Assembly (NCBI RefSeq): GCF_000503775.1
Contig: NZ_KI629782.1
Coordinates: 248,001 to 312,000, forward strand
Source: Brevibacillus panacihumi W25
GTDB taxonomy: Bacteria > Bacillota > Bacilli > Brevibacillales > Brevibacillaceae
DNA: 64,000 nt
Direction: 5' to 3'
Under the pieces are notes generated by a model. It saw only the letters and a list, made by a program, of their open reading frames with translations. It had not been told where the DNA came from and ran no database searches. Made by a program: the position numbers and the translations under genes. Positions 2-48,875 of the stretch are shown here, one piece after another. The number at the start of each line of letters is the position of its first letter. Positions within the stretch are counted from its first letter, which is position 1.

Positions 2-2704
2 TTTTTGGCAAGGAATGAAGAGGGGTTGCTGCTCAGTCCCCGCGAGGCACTCTCTTTTTTCATCGATCCTCCCTGGCTGCGCCACGTCCACTATGAGCCC
101 AGTGAGACATTTGCCGCCTATCAACATACAGCGATGATGATCCAGCAAAGTCTCGAGTCCGGGTCTTTTCTCCCCGATTTTGCCGCATGGAGGGCTGGCT
201 ATCCTGGGTGGAAGTTCGCGGACGAGCCACCTGAACTGCCGGATACCACGAGACGATGGCTTTCTGCTGTCGTTGACGAGATGATCGCATCGCGAGGCGA
301 AGTTGAACGTGCTTGGGAGAACTTGCAAATTCAATATCCCGCCCTCACCGTTACAGGAGAGGACTTGTCCCCGCATTTGCAAGAACAGGAATGGCTTCAA
401 TCCATCGGCTGGCTGCCCGATTTGACACCGTTTCGGACTTGTCTGCAACTCCTGGAAGCCACGGAGACGGAAGACGACTGGACCCTGCAATTTCATTTGC
501 AGGATCGCGAACACCCCGATCGCCTCTACCCGATCGAGCCATCCCTTCTTTTGGCGAGACAAGGCGGATACGAAGAAATACCTGCTGCCTGGCAAGCGTA
601 TGCGGACCGTATCTACAGGGACCTCACAACATGCTTGGAAGTGATGCCATGGCTGATGGCGGATGAAGCTAGCGGGCAGCTGCGGACACGGCTCGACAAT
701 GAACATGCATGGCTTTTCCTGACGACAAGCAGCTTGCAATTGGTGCAGGCAGGGATACACGTCTTTTTACCCGTCTGGTGGGAACAGGTGCGTCGCACAA
801 AACCGCGGCTAAAAGCAAAAATCAAGTCACATGCGGGTACGTCAGGCCCGTCGTTTCTCGGCATCTCGCAGCTTATGGATTTCGAATGGAAGCTGGCATT
901 GGGCGATGTGGAGATCAGCGAAGCAGAATTTGCCCAATTGCTCAAGCAAAAACAACGTCTGCTGAAGATCAGAGGCCATTGGGTGCAGCTGACACCGGAT
1001 CTTTTCTTGCAGATGCAGGATGCCTTGAAGATAAACCGCGGAAAAAACGCCCTGACCCTTCGCGATGTCATGAACATCCATCTGCGAGCGTTGCCGGAAG
1101 AAGAAATTGAACGCCCCACTGAAGACGACGTACCCCAGCAGTTCGCTATGGAGGTGGAACTGAACCGACCTTTGCAGCAATTGTTCACCCAATTGCAGCA
1201 GACACAAAAAATTCCGTTGCTCCCGCAGCCGCAAGCTTTCCATGGCACTCTGCGCAACTACCAGCTGGCAGGGAGCTCGTGGCTGTGGTTCTTGCGGCAA
1301 TATCGACTCGGCGCATGTCTGGCGGACGATATGGGACTCGGGAAAACGGTGCAGTTCATTACCTACCTGCTGTATGTCAAGGATAACGAGGAGCAAAGCA
1401 CCCCTTCCCTGCTGATCTGTCCCACGTCGGTCATCGGAAACTGGCAAAAGGAATTGGAACGGTTCGCTCCGTCTCTGAAGGTGGTCATTCACTACGGCAA
1501 CCATCGCAAAAGACAGGAGGCATTCTTATCCGAAATCGAAGGGGCGGACCTGGTCATCACGTCTTATGCTCTTTCGCATTTGGATGAACAAGAGCTGTCT
1601 CGTGTACACTGGAATACCATCTGCCTGGATGAAGCACAAAATATAAAAAATGCGTATACCAAGCAGGCTTCTGCTGTCCGTGACCTGCGTGCCAACCATC
1701 GGATCGCGCTGACCGGCACTCCGATCGAAAATCGTCTGAGTGAACTATGGTCGATCTTCGACTTTTTAAACCCGGGTTATCTCGGAGGGCTGGGTGAATT
1801 CACACAGCGTTTCGTCCTGCCGATCGAACGGGATCAGGACAAAACCTTGATCTCCCAAGTGCAGCGTCTGATCCAGCCGTTCCTCTTGCGTCGGGTCAAG
1901 ACCGATCCTTCCATTCAACTGGATCTGCCGGAAAAAAGCGAACGAAAGGAATTTGTCCCGCTCACGGCTGAGCAAGGCGCTCTCTATGAAACGGCCATCC
2001 AAGACATGTTCGCTCGCATGGAACGGGCTTCGACGATGGAGCGCCGCGGTCTCATCTTGACCACGCTGACACGCTTGAAGCAGCTTTGCGATCATCCCGC
2101 TCTCATTCTCGGAGAAATCCAAGCACGGGATGAGATCGGGCGCTCGCATAAGCTGGAGCGGCTGCTGGAGTTGATCGAGGATATTCGCCACAAAGGGGAA
2201 CGGTGCTTGGTGTTTACCCAGTATATCGAAATGGGAAACATGCTGAGGCGTGTCCTGATCCGGGAAGGCTATGGACCTGTATTCTTCCTCAATGGCTCAA
2301 CCAAGAAGGAAATGCGAGACGAAATGATCAGCCGCTTCCAGGACCCTTCCGAGGATGTGGAAAACCGGGCAACGGTGTTTATCCTCTCTTTGCGCGCAGG
2401 CGGGACAGGGTTGAATCTGACAGAGGCGAATCATGTCATCCACTTTGACCGCTGGTGGAATCCGGCGGTCGAAAATCAGGCCACAGACCGAGCTCACCGC
2501 ATCGGTCAAAAACGAAATGTGCAGGTTTACAAATTTATATCGCTGGGGACGATTGAAGAGCGGATCGACGAAATGATCGAGCGAAAACAGTCCTTGAGCC
2601 AGCAGATCGTAGGCGGAAGTGAAAGCTGGATTACCGAGTTGTCCAACGCTGAGCTCCGCGAGCTTTTTGCACTCCGCCACCATTGGATGGATACGAGAGG
2701 ATAG
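2..2704 (+). CDS. SNF2/DEAD-box family helicase, 5' end outside window
   Basis: Reading frame is open at the left edge, so the first residues belong upstream and the TTG at position 5 need not be the start. About 900 residues are present. The N-terminal half resembles the bacterial SNF2-associated domain. The motor follows: Walker A DDMGLGKT near residue 440, a DEAQ box (DExH position) near 542, motif III TGTPIEN near 569, and motifs V/VI GGTGLNLTEA and ATDRAHRIGQ near 800-830. These are standard for Swi2/Snf2 ATPases, which translocate on duplex DNA; bacterial relatives are tied to transcription or DNA repair, but the role of this one is unknown. It ends a few bases before a short ORF and shares its terminator. 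Confidence 0.93.
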   Translation, partial: FLARNEEGLLLSPREALSFFIDPPWLRHVHYEPSETFAAYQHTAMMIQQSLESGSFLPDFAAWRAGYPGWKFADEPPELPDTTRRWLSAVVDEMIASRGEVERAWENLQIQYPALTVTGEDLSPHLQEQEWLQSIGWLPDLTPFRTCLQLLEATETEDDWTLQFHLQDREHPDRLYPIEPSLLLARQGGYEEIPAAWQAYADRIYRDLTTCLEVMPWLMADEASGQLRTRLDNEHAWLFLTTSSLQLVQAGIHVFLPVWWEQVRRTKPRLKAKIKSHAGTSGPSFLGISQLMDFEWKLALGDVEISEAEFAQLLKQKQRLLKIRGHWVQLTPDLFLQMQDALKINRGKNALTLRDVMNIHLRALPEEEIERPTEDDVPQQFAMEVELNRPLQQLFTQLQQTQKIPLLPQPQAFHGTLRNYQLAGSSWLWFLRQYRLGACLADDMGLGKTVQFITYLLYVKDNEEQSTPSLLICPTSVIGNWQKELERFAPSLKVVIHYGNHRKRQEAFLSEIEGADLVITSYALSHLDEQELSRVHWNTICLDEAQNIKNAYTKQASAVRDLRANHRIALTGTPIENRLSELWSIFDFLNPGYLGGLGEFTQRFVLPIERDQDKTLISQVQRLIQPFLLRRVKTDPSIQLDLPEKSERKEFVPLTAEQGALYETAIQDMFARMERASTMERRGLILTTLTRLKQLCDHPALILGEIQARDEIGRSHKLERLLELIEDIRHKGERCLVFTQYIEMGNMLRRVLIREGYGPVFFLNGSTKKEMRDEMISRFQDPSEDVENRATVFILSLRAGGTGLNLTEANHVIHFDRWWNPAVENQATDRAHRIGQKRNVQVYKFISLGTIEERIDEMIERKQSLSQQIVGGSESWITELSNAELRELFALRHHWMDTRG

Positions 2705-2712
2705 GTGATGTC

Positions 2713-2847
2713 ATGAAGGAACCAACTGCCACTTCCCCAACAGATCCAAAGAACTCGGAGTCAAAACGCGATTTGCCGGAGGCCTGGCAGCGATTTCTCG
2801 CCGCCATTCAAAAAGAAGCAGCCTCCCTTCCCTCTTCCCAAAACTAA
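2713..2847 (+). CDS. Small hydrophilic protein, 44 aa
   Basis: A short ORF beginning ATG-AAG-GAA, 8 nt after the helicase stop, with an AGGTG ribosome binding site that overlaps the helicase end. The product is polar, rich in Pro, Ser and Glu, with one W-x-x-F-L segment (around residues 25-29) that could be a short amphipathic helix. No family is recognised. Tight spacing and a shared terminator suggest co-translation with the helicase, perhaps as a partner, but that is inference. Confidence 0.55.
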   Translation: MKEPTATSPTDPKNSESKRDLPEAWQRFLAAIQKEAASLPSSQN

Positions 2848-2885
2848 AAAAAGGTCCGATCAGGTTGCTGGTCGGACCTTTTGTA
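2846..2885 (+). terminator. Intrinsic terminator after helicase unit
   Basis: A 13-bp stem (AAGGTCCGATCAG paired with CTGGTCGGACCTT, one G-U pair) with a 4-nt loop, followed by TTTTG. It overlaps the stop codon of the 44-aa ORF. Confidence 0.85.
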
Positions 2886-2958
2886 TTTGTGCTGCACTAA
2901 TTTCATTTATGCAATAGTATGATCAGTTTTCTTTATTAGTCCCCTGCAAAAACGGTGT

Positions 2959-2964
2959 TATAAT
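2959..2964 (+). promoter_or_regulatory. -10 hexamer for MFS gene
   Basis: A perfect TATAAT about 60 nt upstream of the MFS start. The -35 position holds only a weak match, so a SigA-type promoter is likely but not certain. Confidence 0.5.
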
Positions 2965-3021
2965 GATAACAGATGATTTTCCATTTTCCTGCTTTTTCAC
3001 TGCAAAGGTTGTGACGGAAAG

Positions 3022-4251
3022 ATGAATTTTTCCTGGAAACGAAATTTAATCGTACTCTGGCTCGGAGTCTTTTTTTGTAGTACGGCCTACACCATCTCAA
3101 TCCCGTTCTTGCCGATCTTCCTCCATACTTCGATGGGAATTAACGAAAATCTGGAGATTTGGGCGGGTATCTCGTTCGGAATTACGTTTTTGGCAAGTGC
3201 CTTGATTTCTCCCTACTGGGGCTCTCTTGCAGACAAGTACGGGCGCAAGCCGATGCTGATCCGCTCTGGATACAGTCTTGCACTCCTCTATTTCTTGACA
3301 TACTTCATTACGGACCCTTATGTGTTCATCGTCTTGCGCATCTTCCAAGGACTGCTCGCCGGGTTTGTCCCCGCCTCCATCGCCTTGGTCGGTACCAACA
3401 CGCCAGAAAAAGATGTCGGGTACGCACTCGGCGTCATGGCCACAGCGGGAGCTACCGGAAACATCATCGGGCCCTTGGTTGGCGGGGTTGTCAGCCATCT
3501 GTGGGGAAACCGCGAAGCGTTTCTTTTTTCCGGGTGTGTCGTGCTGGTGGCTGCCTTGATTGCAACCTTTTTTGTCAAAGAAACGAAATTGAACAAATCC
3601 GGTGTGCGCTCACGTGTAAGTGAAGATCTGCGAGCAGCATGGGCGAATCGGCCGCTTATGGCCCTGCTGGGCGTCAGCATGATGGTGACTTGCTCGGTGA
3701 TGCTGCTGGAACCGCTGCTTACGGTCTACGTCCTGCAATTGGGTGTGAGCGAGCACGAGGCCTCTTTAAGCGCAGGAATTATCTTCGCCTCTGTCGGAAT
3801 CGCCACCGTAATCGCCTCTCCGCGATGGGGGCGTTTGGGAAGCAACATCGGTTTTACGAAGATATTGTTTATCGGTTTGATCGGCGGAGCGGTTGGGAAT
3901 TTGCTGCAATACTTCTTCACCAACTTGTATGGATTCGGCATCCTTCGCTTCGTGTACGGCCTGTTCTTTGCGGCGGTCTATCCATCTATCAACGCAATGA
4001 TTGTCAAAGTAACGGAACCTGAGTTTCGCGGTAGAGCATTCAGCCTCAACCAATCCTCGAACCAGCTCGCAACGATGCTGGGCCCCGTTATAGGCGGAGT
4101 AATGGGCGGACTCATTCCAATCCGGGTGGTTTTTATCCTTAACGGATTGGCTCTGCTAGTCACAGCCCTCGTGATCTACTACAAAAAACCAGGGCGCAAG
4201 TCGAGTCCTTCGCAGCAGCCTGCTGCGGATGCACAGGTATTGGCAAAATAG
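3022..4251 (+). CDS. MFS drug-efflux-type transporter
   Basis: A 409-residue major facilitator with about 12 hydrophobic segments. The loop after the second helix carries GSLADKYGRKP, the classical MFS motif A (GxLADrxGrkp), and the fifth helix region carries a GATGNIIGPLVGG stretch resembling motif C of drug/H+ antiporters. Length and motifs fit the DHA1 efflux group (Bmr/TetA relatives). It is a single-gene unit with its own -10 box and a strong terminator. The substrate cannot be inferred from sequence; the neighbouring DeoR gene faces it and looks linked to sugar genes instead. Confidence 0.85.
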   Translation: MNFSWKRNLIVLWLGVFFCSTAYTISIPFLPIFLHTSMGINENLEIWAGISFGITFLASALISPYWGSLADKYGRKPMLIRSGYSLALLYFLTYFITDPYVFIVLRIFQGLLAGFVPASIALVGTNTPEKDVGYALGVMATAGATGNIIGPLVGGVVSHLWGNREAFLFSGCVVLVAALIATFFVKETKLNKSGVRSRVSEDLRAAWANRPLMALLGVSMMVTCSVMLLEPLLTVYVLQLGVSEHEASLSAGIIFASVGIATVIASPRWGRLGSNIGFTKILFIGLIGGAVGNLLQYFFTNLYGFGILRFVYGLFFAAVYPSINAMIVKVTEPEFRGRAFSLNQSSNQLATMLGPVIGGVMGGLIPIRVVFILNGLALLVTALVIYYKKPGRKSSPSQQPAADAQVLAK

Positions 4252-28208: not shown

Positions 28209-28745
28209 TTAGCCTTCAGGTGCAGGACCCGAATATCGATGCCACAGCTGGAGATTCCCCCTCGCTTCCACCTCAAATACTGTGTCACAAATCCCTTCCA
28301 TCACTTGCTCCAGGTCGGCTTCTTCCGGTGTCGGATACGAAAAGGCATAGCAGATCTTCGCTTGCTCATCCGTAGATTCGTACCTGATTGAATAAAAATT
28401 CGGCCACAATTCCAACGCTTGCTTGCGCGACAAGAGGGTCGCCTCCAAAGGAAACAAACCGTCCCATTCCGACTTTTGATACGTAGAGGTAACTTCCACG
28501 CAAAATGCTTCGGCTTCCTCGTCGATGCGCTTGAAAACAACCTGATCCTCCCGGTAGAAACCGTATCCGGATGGCAGTGTATCCGCTAAAGAAAAACCGA
28601 TACCGATTGGCAAATCGTTCGGTTTTAAGGCGTGGATGAGTCTTCCTGGCAAAAGGTAATGTCCCTCCTGTTGGAATGAGAGGAATTCGCCCAGCACTGC
28701 TACTGTCTGTTGGTTACTTTCGCTCGTCGTGACTTGTACGTACAT
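28209..28745 (-). CDS. Hypothetical protein, 178 aa
   Basis: A soluble protein with a strong start signal (GGAGGTG 7 nt upstream) and codon use like its neighbours, so it is a real gene. Sequence is rich in aromatic and acidic residues with a beta-rich N-terminal half (MYVQVTTSESNQQTVAVLG) and no signal peptide, metal motif or helix repeat. I recognise no family. A TTGAGT-16-TACTGT candidate promoter lies just upstream, so the adjacent palindrome is probably outside its transcript. Confidence 0.75.
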   Translation of the reverse strand: MYVQVTTSESNQQTVAVLGEFLSFQQEGHYLLPGRLIHALKPNDLPIGIGFSLADTLPSGYGFYREDQVVFKRIDEEAEAFCVEVTSTYQKSEWDGLFPLEATLLSRKQALELWPNFYSIRYESTDEQAKICYAFSYPTPEEADLEQVMEGICDTVFEVEARGNLQLWHRYSGPAPEG

Positions 28746-28825
28746 GATCGGTGCACCTCCATCCTCAACAGTATGGTCACATTGACTTGACTCAAAACAC
28801 TCTGATCAGACTGTTGTGGAGGGGA

Positions 28826-29028
28826 GGAAAAAGAGAAAAACGCTCAGGCGGGTTGGGATCTTTGCTGGTGGTCATCCCTGGCCGCCTCCCGCTCCAAAGG
28901 CGGAACCGCGGCCAAAAGCAGCCGACTTCGAAGAAGTCATTCAAGGTTGGCCGCTGAATACGTGTTCCGCCTTTTCCGTTCCGGCTTGGTCAAGATCCCA
29001 AATGCCTTCGCTTTTTTTCTCTTTTTCC
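28826..29028. repeat. 203-bp nested palindromic element
   Basis: A non-coding block made of nested inverted repeats. Outermost arms GGAAAAAGAGAAAAACGC (28826-28843) and its near-perfect complement (29010-29028); next TTGGGATCTTTG with CAAGATCCCAA (28853-28864/28991-29001); next a perfect 11-bp pair at 28896-28906/28964-28974; next a perfect 8-bp GCGGCCAA/TTGGCCGC (28908-28915/28947-28954); apex GACTTC-GAA-GAAGTC (28924-28938). Both ends carry poly-A/T runs. It could be a MITE-like repeat, a bidirectional terminator-like cassette or a structured RNA. The rest of 28746-29148 contains only promoters and a terminator. Confidence 0.8.
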
Positions 29029-29094
29029 TTCAGCCAACACTTCTTATTAAATTGCTGCCCTATCTGAGGGTTTCTCATGGTGTTTTGATAATAA

Positions 29095-29128
29095 AAAACT
29101 GCCCCTTATTTTCAGGGGCAGTCCTTCA
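29095..29128 (-). terminator. Terminator of FrnE gene
   Basis: Minus-strand ACTGCCCCT pairs with AGGGGCAGT around a short A/T loop, followed by a TTTTTATTAT tail. Confidence 0.75.
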
Positions 29129-29148
29129 TCTCTCACTGGCTATTCTTG

Positions 29149-29778
29149 TTATTCGTTTTCCTTATTGAGTACATGGTGAAAAGCCTTCAAGAAATTCTCT
29201 GGCGGATGCGCCCCGGACAGGGCAAGCTTCCCGTCAAAGACAAAGAACGGCACGCCGGTAATCTGGTTATCTCTGGCGAATGCGATGTCCGCATTGATTT
29301 CATCTGTATGTCGTTCGTTTTCGATCGCATCGCGGATTTGCTCTCGGTCAAGGCCCAGTTCTTCTGCCAGCCCGAGCAGAACCTGCAGATCGCCGATGTC
29401 TTTCCCATCTTCAAAGTAAGCTTTGTATATGGCATCCACGACCCTTTCCGCGTCACCACTTGGCACACTTTTGATGAACTGATGGGACGCCAAGGTATTC
29501 GGCATTTTTTCAACCTTATCAAAACGAAACGGCAGATTAGCCGCTTCTCCAGCGCGCGTGACCTGGCTCAACATTTGCTGCACCATTTCCGGACTTCCTT
29601 TGGAGGCCATTACCTCTAGGAATGGCTTGCCTTCCCTGGGAAGGTCCGGGAACAGCTGGTAGGCACGGTATTGGATATGGATCGGCTCTCCTGTCCATTG
29701 GGCAATGGCATCAGACAAGTTCTTTTTCCCAATCCGGCACCACGGACAAACCATGTCCTGAAAAATCTCGATTTGCAT
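29149..29778 (-). CDS. DsbA/FrnE-family oxidoreductase
   Basis: A 209-residue thioredoxin-fold protein of the FrnE/2-hydroxychromene-2-carboxylate isomerase-like group. C11-P-W-C14 is the active site and GVPFFVFDGK carries the conserved cis-Pro. Helical insertion between them is typical of DsbA. No signal peptide, so cytosolic thiol redox chemistry is expected. FrnE-like proteins act in dithiol exchange and oxidative-stress tolerance; this one's partner is unknown. Confidence 0.9.
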   Translation of the reverse strand: MQIEIFQDMVCPWCRIGKKNLSDAIAQWTGEPIHIQYRAYQLFPDLPREGKPFLEVMASKGSPEMVQQMLSQVTRAGEAANLPFRFDKVEKMPNTLASHQFIKSVPSGDAERVVDAIYKAYFEDGKDIGDLQVLLGLAEELGLDREQIRDAIENERHTDEINADIAFARDNQITGVPFFVFDGKLALSGAHPPENFLKAFHHVLNKENE

Positions 29779-48355: not shown

Positions 48356-48420
48356 CATAGGGAAAGAAGCCTTGCTTTCCTCGTTTTTTGCAAAACGAGA
48401 GGAAAGAAAGCGAGTCTCAT

Positions 48421-48555
48421 CTTCTCCCATCCGGACTTTACCGTCGGCTCTGGAATTGCACCAGATCAGTCGCAAATGCTACATGATTTGCGAGTCGCGG
48501 GCTTGGACGCAAATGCGCCATCACCGCCGGTCAGGAATTTCACCTTGCCCTGAAG
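48421..48555 (-). promoter_or_regulatory. FMN riboswitch, downstream copy
   Basis: Complete RFN aptamer: begins CTTCAGGGCAAGGTGAAATTC, then CCGGCGGT, the AGCCCGCGACTCGC segment, GACTGATCTGGTGCAATTCCAG, and ends CCGACGGTAAAGTCCGGATGGGAGAAG. All conserved helix P1-P6 sequence blocks are present. FMN binding should favour the terminator between it and ribD. Confidence 0.96.
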
Positions 48556-48603
48556 ATGTTTCGTATGCAGTTCCTGCCTGTTCCTTGCCACTTCCTCCTT
48601 CCT

Positions 48604-48643: not shown

Positions 48644-48701
48644 GAAACAAGCCTCTGTACCACCGTTTTTTGCAAAACGGTCCACGAAGCCAGCCAAATA
48701 C

Positions 48702-48839
48702 CTTCTCCCATCCGGACTTTACCGTCGGCCTTGGAATTCCACCAAGTCAGTCGCCATCCAACATCTACGGACAGCGAGTCGCGGGCTCAGACGTGCGTTC
48801 GTCATTACCGCCGGTCGGGAATTTCACCCTACCCTGAAG
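48702..48839 (-). promoter_or_regulatory. FMN riboswitch, upstream copy
   Basis: A second complete RFN aptamer with all signature blocks: CTTCAGGGTAGGGTGAAATTC, CCGGCGGTAATGACG, AGCCCGCGACTCGC, GACTGACTTGGTGGAATTCC, and the CCGACGGTAAAGTCCGGATGGGAGAAG end. It has its own terminator, so transcription must pass two FMN checkpoints before ribD. Confidence 0.96.
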
Positions 48840-48875
48840 GTTGGTATTCAGTTGTGAACATTATACCACAGTTTT

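Follow-up and report, generated by a model that had tools for sequence, protein, structure and literature searches.

The palindrome at positions 28825-29029 of the window, i.e. the whole 64,000-nucleotide stretch of DNA analysed here, is one copy of a dispersed non-coding foldback DNA repeat, P1, of which many genomes of the Brevibacillus family contain tens of copies. With a conserved, apparently DNA-level fold of 200 bases, an orientation that follows replication almost without exception in the tested genomes, and two independent site-specific parasites, P1 offers a natural system for asking what it is at the fork that recognises folded single-stranded DNA.

A nested palindrome between two genes

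Direct reading and an inverted-repeat search of the window delimit a core of ~205 bp, which is the only P1 copy in the window and lies in the orientation of the covariance model R1 described below (206 bits on the + strand, 28 bits on the − strand); all parts of the element are given here in this + orientation. The core ends in a perfect 16-nt inverted repeat found by the same search, with a purine-rich left arm at 28825-28840 and the right arm at 29014-29029. Within these arms are nested a middle 10-bp stem, in which TTGGGATCTT (28853-28862) pairs with AAGATCCCAA (28992-29001), an inner 11-bp stem of AAAGGCGGAAC (28896-28906) and GTTCCGCCTTT (28964-28974), and an 8-bp stem of GCGGCCAA (28908-28915) and TTGGCCGC (28947-28954). 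The 10-bp and 11-bp stems are backed by sequence, predicted fold and conserved pairs, the 8-bp stem by sequence and conserved pairs, and direct reading adds an inner GACTTC/GAAGTC pairing.

Folded as RNA, P1 reaches −96 kcal/mol on the + strand (z −6.85) and −91.2 kcal/mol on the − strand (z −5.62), and none of 200 shuffled sequences did as well on either strand; with DNA parameters, the z-scores are −5.78 (+) and −6.23 (−). The nested palindrome with 11-bp and 8-bp stems that the original prediction had proposed is thus borne out, its extent being 28825-29029. The same prediction had envisaged a switch between folds via CCGCCT and AGGCGG. The two halves of this stem lie at 28882-28887 and 28898-28903; the left one differs from copy to copy, which leaves a conserved switch unsupported.

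The conserved element extends beyond the core, to ~28800-29082, with weaker outer arms and, in a subset of copies, a right-hand motif. The left outer extension (28800-28824) is degenerate at the window site and has the family consensus GGTGGTCctCCAGCTgTAGTGGaGggG, while the right one (29030-29082), present in part of the copies, carries the motif GAGGGTTTCTCATGG, replaced by GGGCTTCTCATGGAG in other copies. At the left foot, inspected by eye for the GT[AG]G criterion of REPs, GTGG or GTAG is common in the window genome and GTGC in others.

As had been expected, P1 has no real coding capacity, the only overlapping ORF being a mechanical one of 83 aa. Both flanking genes lie on the − strand, in line with the original description, which had them both reading away from the palindrome; only the left gene (28209-28745, without a Pfam match) does so, and the right gene (29149-29778), which encodes a DsbA-like protein (PF01323), reads towards P1. 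Between the latter gene and P1, a hairpin with a T-run on the − strand (29091-29129), visible on inspection and listed as inverted repeat I3, resembles an intrinsic terminator of the DsbA-like gene; it is absent from the list of a terminator scan, which gave one site at the P1 locus against 1.0 expected from shuffles. The T-runs of P1 itself sit within the arms and not outside the stem, which argues against the double terminator once considered for this site. Two promoter-like sites, one per strand, are located at 29085-29115 (0.3 expected from shuffles over 28600-29300). The one on the − strand points into P1, and both overlap the A/T-rich terminator.

Occurrence in the Brevibacillus family

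A DNA search yielded at least 41 matches of 84-100% identity in the window genome (G000; 40 of 98 candidates scored), and a scan with a conserved 29-mer at up to three mismatches yielded 59, with none for a reversed-pattern control. The 58 loci of this genome that were covered contain 59 P1 copies. Elsewhere, BLAST matched P1 in 22 of 60 genomes, window genome included. The covariance model R1, built from 22 copies and comprising 46 pairs, also recovered members from other genera at full length, with matches in 12 of the 20 chosen genomes, and, across the order, gave matches in 32 of 39 genomes (window genome included) and five of seven genera; there was no match in three of three genomes of other families (G036, G038 and G056). 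Within one genus, match counts start at zero (G011, G022) and go beyond 60.

Among the matches listed for a pattern scan of named genomes, all were Brevibacillus records except for one Proteobacteria MAG (L182), which was rejected as a family member as it gave no covariance-model match. Also noted were shortened copies (~100-120 nt) with matches to the two ends of the model, at L149:5777-5895, G000:C1:1690158-1690258 and G017:C1:741370-741468; the L149 copy visibly lacks its interior. A second large palindrome family, P2, is located to the right of P1 in the same orientation (L172:7000-8000, L164, L034 and L084). Neither P1 nor P1+P2 had a match in plasmid or phage collections, and a plasmid or phage origin was rejected.

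Conservation of the pairing

Compensatory double changes occur in 24 of the 46 pairs (22 copies, 14 genomes). In an alignment of 60 distinct copies (43 window-genome rows plus 19 B. panacihumi rows, with two duplicates), which was fitted to model R1 and is hence biased towards the model structure, 97.3% of cells are paired vs 93.7% in shuffles, and double-change cells number 107 vs 27.5, a count that none of 500 shuffles reached. Sliding the partner by 1-3 columns abolishes the signal in this alignment.

A structured RNA accepts G-U on its own strand, not A-C. Where pairs with at least 60% Watson-Crick cells are counted, the G-T:A-C mispairs of P1 number 29:27 in alignment A3 (one pair supplying 17 of the 29), 18:19 in A2 and 44:47 in A4, which takes in partial and intron-bearing rows. 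An FMN riboswitch from the same genus, used as a control under the same filter, gave 25:1 (30 sequences, alifold structure). Since G-T and A-C are about equally frequent in P1, unlike in this control, the fold looks to have been selected as DNA and not as RNA, and the pairing accordingly looks to be that of a DNA hairpin or cruciform. The mispair result depends on the choice of counted pairs: A3 gives 79:27 when the Watson-Crick filter is dropped, a single pair of G-U consensus supplying 50 of the 79. Structures chosen by energy, in which G-U is admitted and A-C is not, give 120:81 (A3) and 23:33 (A2). An Rfam scan of P1, suggested along with the original prediction, returned no family above threshold, and the sole hit of a permissive search was to a microRNA family (16.9 of 100 bits, mostly outside P1). 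The idea of a structured small RNA thus found no backing in either the mispairs, which show no RNA-type G-U excess, or Rfam.

Changes after insertion can be followed in 14 orthologue pairs between the window genome and B. panacihumi, picked as complete on both sides. Here, 34 of 1285 paired and 123 of 1560 unpaired positions have changed, next to 54 of 780 (6.9%) and 73 of 774 (9.4%) in the short flanks. With stems changing at about one-third of the unpaired rate, they are constrained after insertion, which could equally mean a host function. Both sides have changed with pairing retained in four of 642 pairs; eight single changes led to wobble and 18 broke or mended a pair. Hairpin-templated correction as the sole source of the pairing predicts many double changes, and was rejected given that only these four of 642 were seen.

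Polarity relative to replication

Relative to replication, 191 of the 200 copies among the matches listed for nine genomes with a located dnaA lie on the expected strand, taking dnaA as the origin and assuming a terminus half a genome away (with a rounded length for G021). These counts drop reverse-strand duplicates, two short G017 partials (one fitting, one not) and one weak, fitting G001 match. In G002, G006, G014, G018 and G019, every listed copy (130 of 130) is on the expected strand, and six of the nine wrong-way copies belong to G001. If same-strand neighbours within 3 kb are merged, 147 of 154 are on the expected strand (p = 2e-11 against 0.75).

This polarity exceeds the strand bias of genes: simple longest-ORF calls in the window genome put 46,296 of 61,232 flanking ORF residues (~76%) on the matching strand. 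GC skew in 4-kb windows, read in element orientation, is negative at 55 of the 58 loci of this genome, including eight of nine loci between convergent ORFs, and the right neighbour reads towards P1 at 42 of 49 loci. On the lagging-strand template, P1 is present as the reverse complement of its + orientation given above.

Spread and age of the copies

A tree of 114 copies (190-215 nt), rooted at its midpoint, puts all 65 from the panacihumi group, i.e. the window genome plus B. panacihumi, in one clade (support 0.78) and all 29 of the brevis group in another (support 0.96); the reuszeri copies form no single clade. B. panacihumi JCM 15085 (G025) matches the window genome at 91-92% around the window site, and 25 of 27 B. 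panacihumi copies have flanks of more than 300 bp that match a copy locus of G000, which implies that most copies are old and stable within this pair. G016 lacks P1 at the window site. Two loci are common to deep lineages, one to borstelensis, porteri and G007, the other to the window genome and formosus, and their copies cluster with their own lineage, an arrangement that also fits gene conversion. Overall, the data fit lineage-wise bursts of spread, with some gene conversion possible.

Empty-site candidates among the loci amounted to 27 rows, mostly tandem or shared loci, with one usable case (L192 vs L146). In this comparison and in that of the window with G016, the ends of the element are fuzzy and no target duplication could be established. 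At L169, B. panacihumi has two P1 copies ~2 kb apart where G000 (L030) has one; the second copy was rejected as a clean empty-site case on account of its rearranged, gene-interrupting context, and the ends are fuzzy here too.

Tandem arrangements were seen as well. In G001, an array at L071:753-2590 consists of five head-to-tail units of ~351 bp that contain P1, with alternate units most alike, and in the brevis group (porteri, fortis) P1 and P2 form tandem units of ~518 bp, a spacing that comes up again among the listed copies. By eye, the outer ends of the P1+P2 pair resemble inverted repeats around CTGTAGTGG.

A landing pad for two unrelated mobile elements

Two mutually unrelated elements, an IS110-family element and a group II intron, use P1 copies as a landing pad in a site-specific manner. 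The IS110-family element (PF01548 plus PF02371) occupies seven of the 59 copies, always inserted at one particular AA in the left arm, which corresponds to 28828-28829 in the uninterrupted window copy. It measures 1593 bp in the six copies with both ends seen; the left end in L092 was not found. L014:408-2000 is an example, with six other copies besides. The leader 5′ of its transposase gene holds both TCCCCTTTTT, the complement of the right half of the target (10 of 2000 shuffled targets do as well), and GGAGGAAA, identical to the left half (143 of 2000). Leader matches to both target halves are the arrangement expected of a bridge RNA (PMC11208160). For this IS110 element with its guide-like leader, P1 provides many target copies in nature, which makes bridge-RNA targeting readable from genomes.

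The group II intron, recognised by Rfam matches, is found in 10 of the 59 copies at one point of the inner stem, between the equivalents of 28947 and 28948 in the right half of the 8-bp stem; two of these introns adjoin the IS. It is exemplified by L077 (~2146-4090, reverse strand) and contains a 447-aa ORF that we take to be RT-like. Insertions differ between the window genome and B. panacihumi in both directions. Among the 24 B. panacihumi copies that were aligned, the intron is present in four and an IS junction in two at places where the G000 counterparts are uninterrupted; one of these four is L180, which corresponds to the window copy. Conversely, L094 (intron) and L045 (IS) are filled in G000 and uninterrupted in B. 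panacihumi, where L187 is the counterpart of L045.

Relation to known elements

REPs are palindromes used as IS targets, above all by the IS110 family, according to an extract of PMC1525189; they have been proposed to be mobilised by enzymes acting on single-stranded DNA (PMC6006769, in excerpt), and an excerpt of PMC3733652 gives their size as 20-40 bp. P1 shares with REPs and REPINs its nature as a dispersed intergenic palindrome and IS target, and differs from them in its core of ~205 bp and in its relation to RAYTs. No intact Y1/RAYT gene was found in three copy-rich genomes (PF01797, E ≤ 0.001): G025 and G001 gave no match, despite 46 and 34 P1 matches, respectively, and G000 only broken pieces. 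Y1 matches occur in nine of 14 genomes searched and are most numerous in G021 (13, with 21 P1 matches) and G008 (11, with eight P1 matches). Y1 gene presence does not track P1 match numbers, and a RAYT/IS200 partner, the obvious candidate, was rejected for the genomes searched, as Y1 genes were either not found or broken in the copy-rich ones.

Bacterial MITEs such as Bcr1, NEMIS, ERIC and RUP are described in part of PMC3733652 as elements of 70-300 bp with TIRs and no coding capacity. P1 is similar in size range, TIR-like arms and absence of coding capacity, and is unlike them in its nested pairing over the full length, its mispairs without RNA bias and its replication polarity of more than 95%. 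The original call of a MITE-like or REP-type repeat was therefore right in kind, as the copies, TIR-like arms and pairing indicate; a REP in the strict sense is contradicted by size and by the lack of an intact Y1 in the three copy-rich genomes.

Integron attC sites are imperfect DNA palindromes that are strand-selective and recognised as single-strand hairpins (PMC2727003, in part), and group II introns have been associated with integrons, as covered in an excerpt of PMC7923331. P1 resembles attC as an imperfect palindrome associated with introns, and the P1 loci looked at are without gene cassettes. Both IIC introns and IS1111-type elements use attC as an insertion site. A further likeness is to the end hairpins of IS200/IS605 elements, which are acted on in the lagging-strand template (excerpt of PMC6006769); no tnpA was seen in P1 copies. 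In a search of literature largely outside the subscription journals, no publication was recognised as describing the P1 repeat, and, by a term search, neither PMC4666352 (on intrastrand triplex repeats) nor PMC3733652 mentions Brevibacillus. The kind of element is thus known, and the combination of features looks new.

Possible mechanism and alternatives

We give about an even chance to an explanation in which P1 is a dispersed foldback repeat that forms a hairpin on the lagging-strand template and spread in lineage bursts via a putative hairpin-recognising enzyme. Its working form would be this hairpin, formed while the lagging-strand template is transiently single-stranded. Spread would proceed through a candidate enzyme that recognises the single-stranded hairpin together with its conserved unpaired bases, possibly in a manner analogous to the recognition of IS200/IS605 ends, REPs or attC sites. 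As to current mobility, the majority of copies are old and also present in B. panacihumi, which counts against this explanation, as do the fuzzy ends at the empty sites compared and the lack of an intact Y1 gene in the three copy-rich genomes.

The main rival is a host function at the fork, with P1 as a host-adopted, replication-polar DNA site for lagging-strand priming, fork restart, strand-specific repair or a translocase direction signal, and with spread being secondary. A polarity of 191 of 200 listed copies, and of 130 of 130 in five genomes, above the gene-strand bias of ~76% is what such a site would show, and the constraint on stems after insertion and the two loci kept across deep lineages point the same way. 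Match counts from none to more than 60 within one genus, lineage-specific clades and copies interrupted by the IS and the intron all speak against it, and we hold it to be a serious but somewhat unlikely reading. The wider proposal that P1 and its companion palindrome P2 are a chromosomal single-strand DNA element of a new class strikes us as unlikely. Such an element would operate as a hairpin on the lagging-strand template only, have its DNA fold selected, be served by a putative dedicated protein and be tied to replication like single-strand initiation or direction signals, with two unrelated mobile elements exploiting it as a safe target, one of them by a bridge RNA directed at its arm. 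An ordinary MITE moved by a DDE cut-and-paste transposase, whose polarity would have arisen later by selection, would account for the TIR-like 16-nt arms, the absence of real coding capacity, the many copies and the by-eye likeness of the P1+P2 outer ends to inverted repeats around CTGTAGTGG. Double-strand insertion, though, is not expected to give near-absolute replication polarity, pairing is kept through the whole nested depth and not at the ends alone, and no target duplication was seen in two empty-site comparisons and one rearranged site, all with fuzzy ends; this origin is quite improbable.

A role at the RNA level, be it as a riboswitch-like leader, a 3′-UTR element or a double terminator, would draw on the strong fold on both strands, the covariation, the right neighbours that read towards P1 at 42 of 49 loci and the − strand promoter-like site that points into P1, though it overlaps the A/T-rich terminator. 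It is opposed by the missing wobble asymmetry under the Watson-Crick filter, the lack of an Rfam family above threshold, the terminator-like hairpins that several upstream genes have of their own before P1 and the orientation that holds at eight of nine convergent loci, and we rate it as very improbable. The search for further copies in the same genome, which the original prediction had named as a check, turned up at least 59; with these copies, the conserved pairing and the family-wide range, the probability of a chance palindrome is practically negligible.

Elsewhere in the window, two FMN riboswitch aptamers lie in tandem on the − strand (48415-48561 and 48696-48845), ~135 bp apart, and neighbouring pairs of FMN riboswitches recur in other genomes of the genus.
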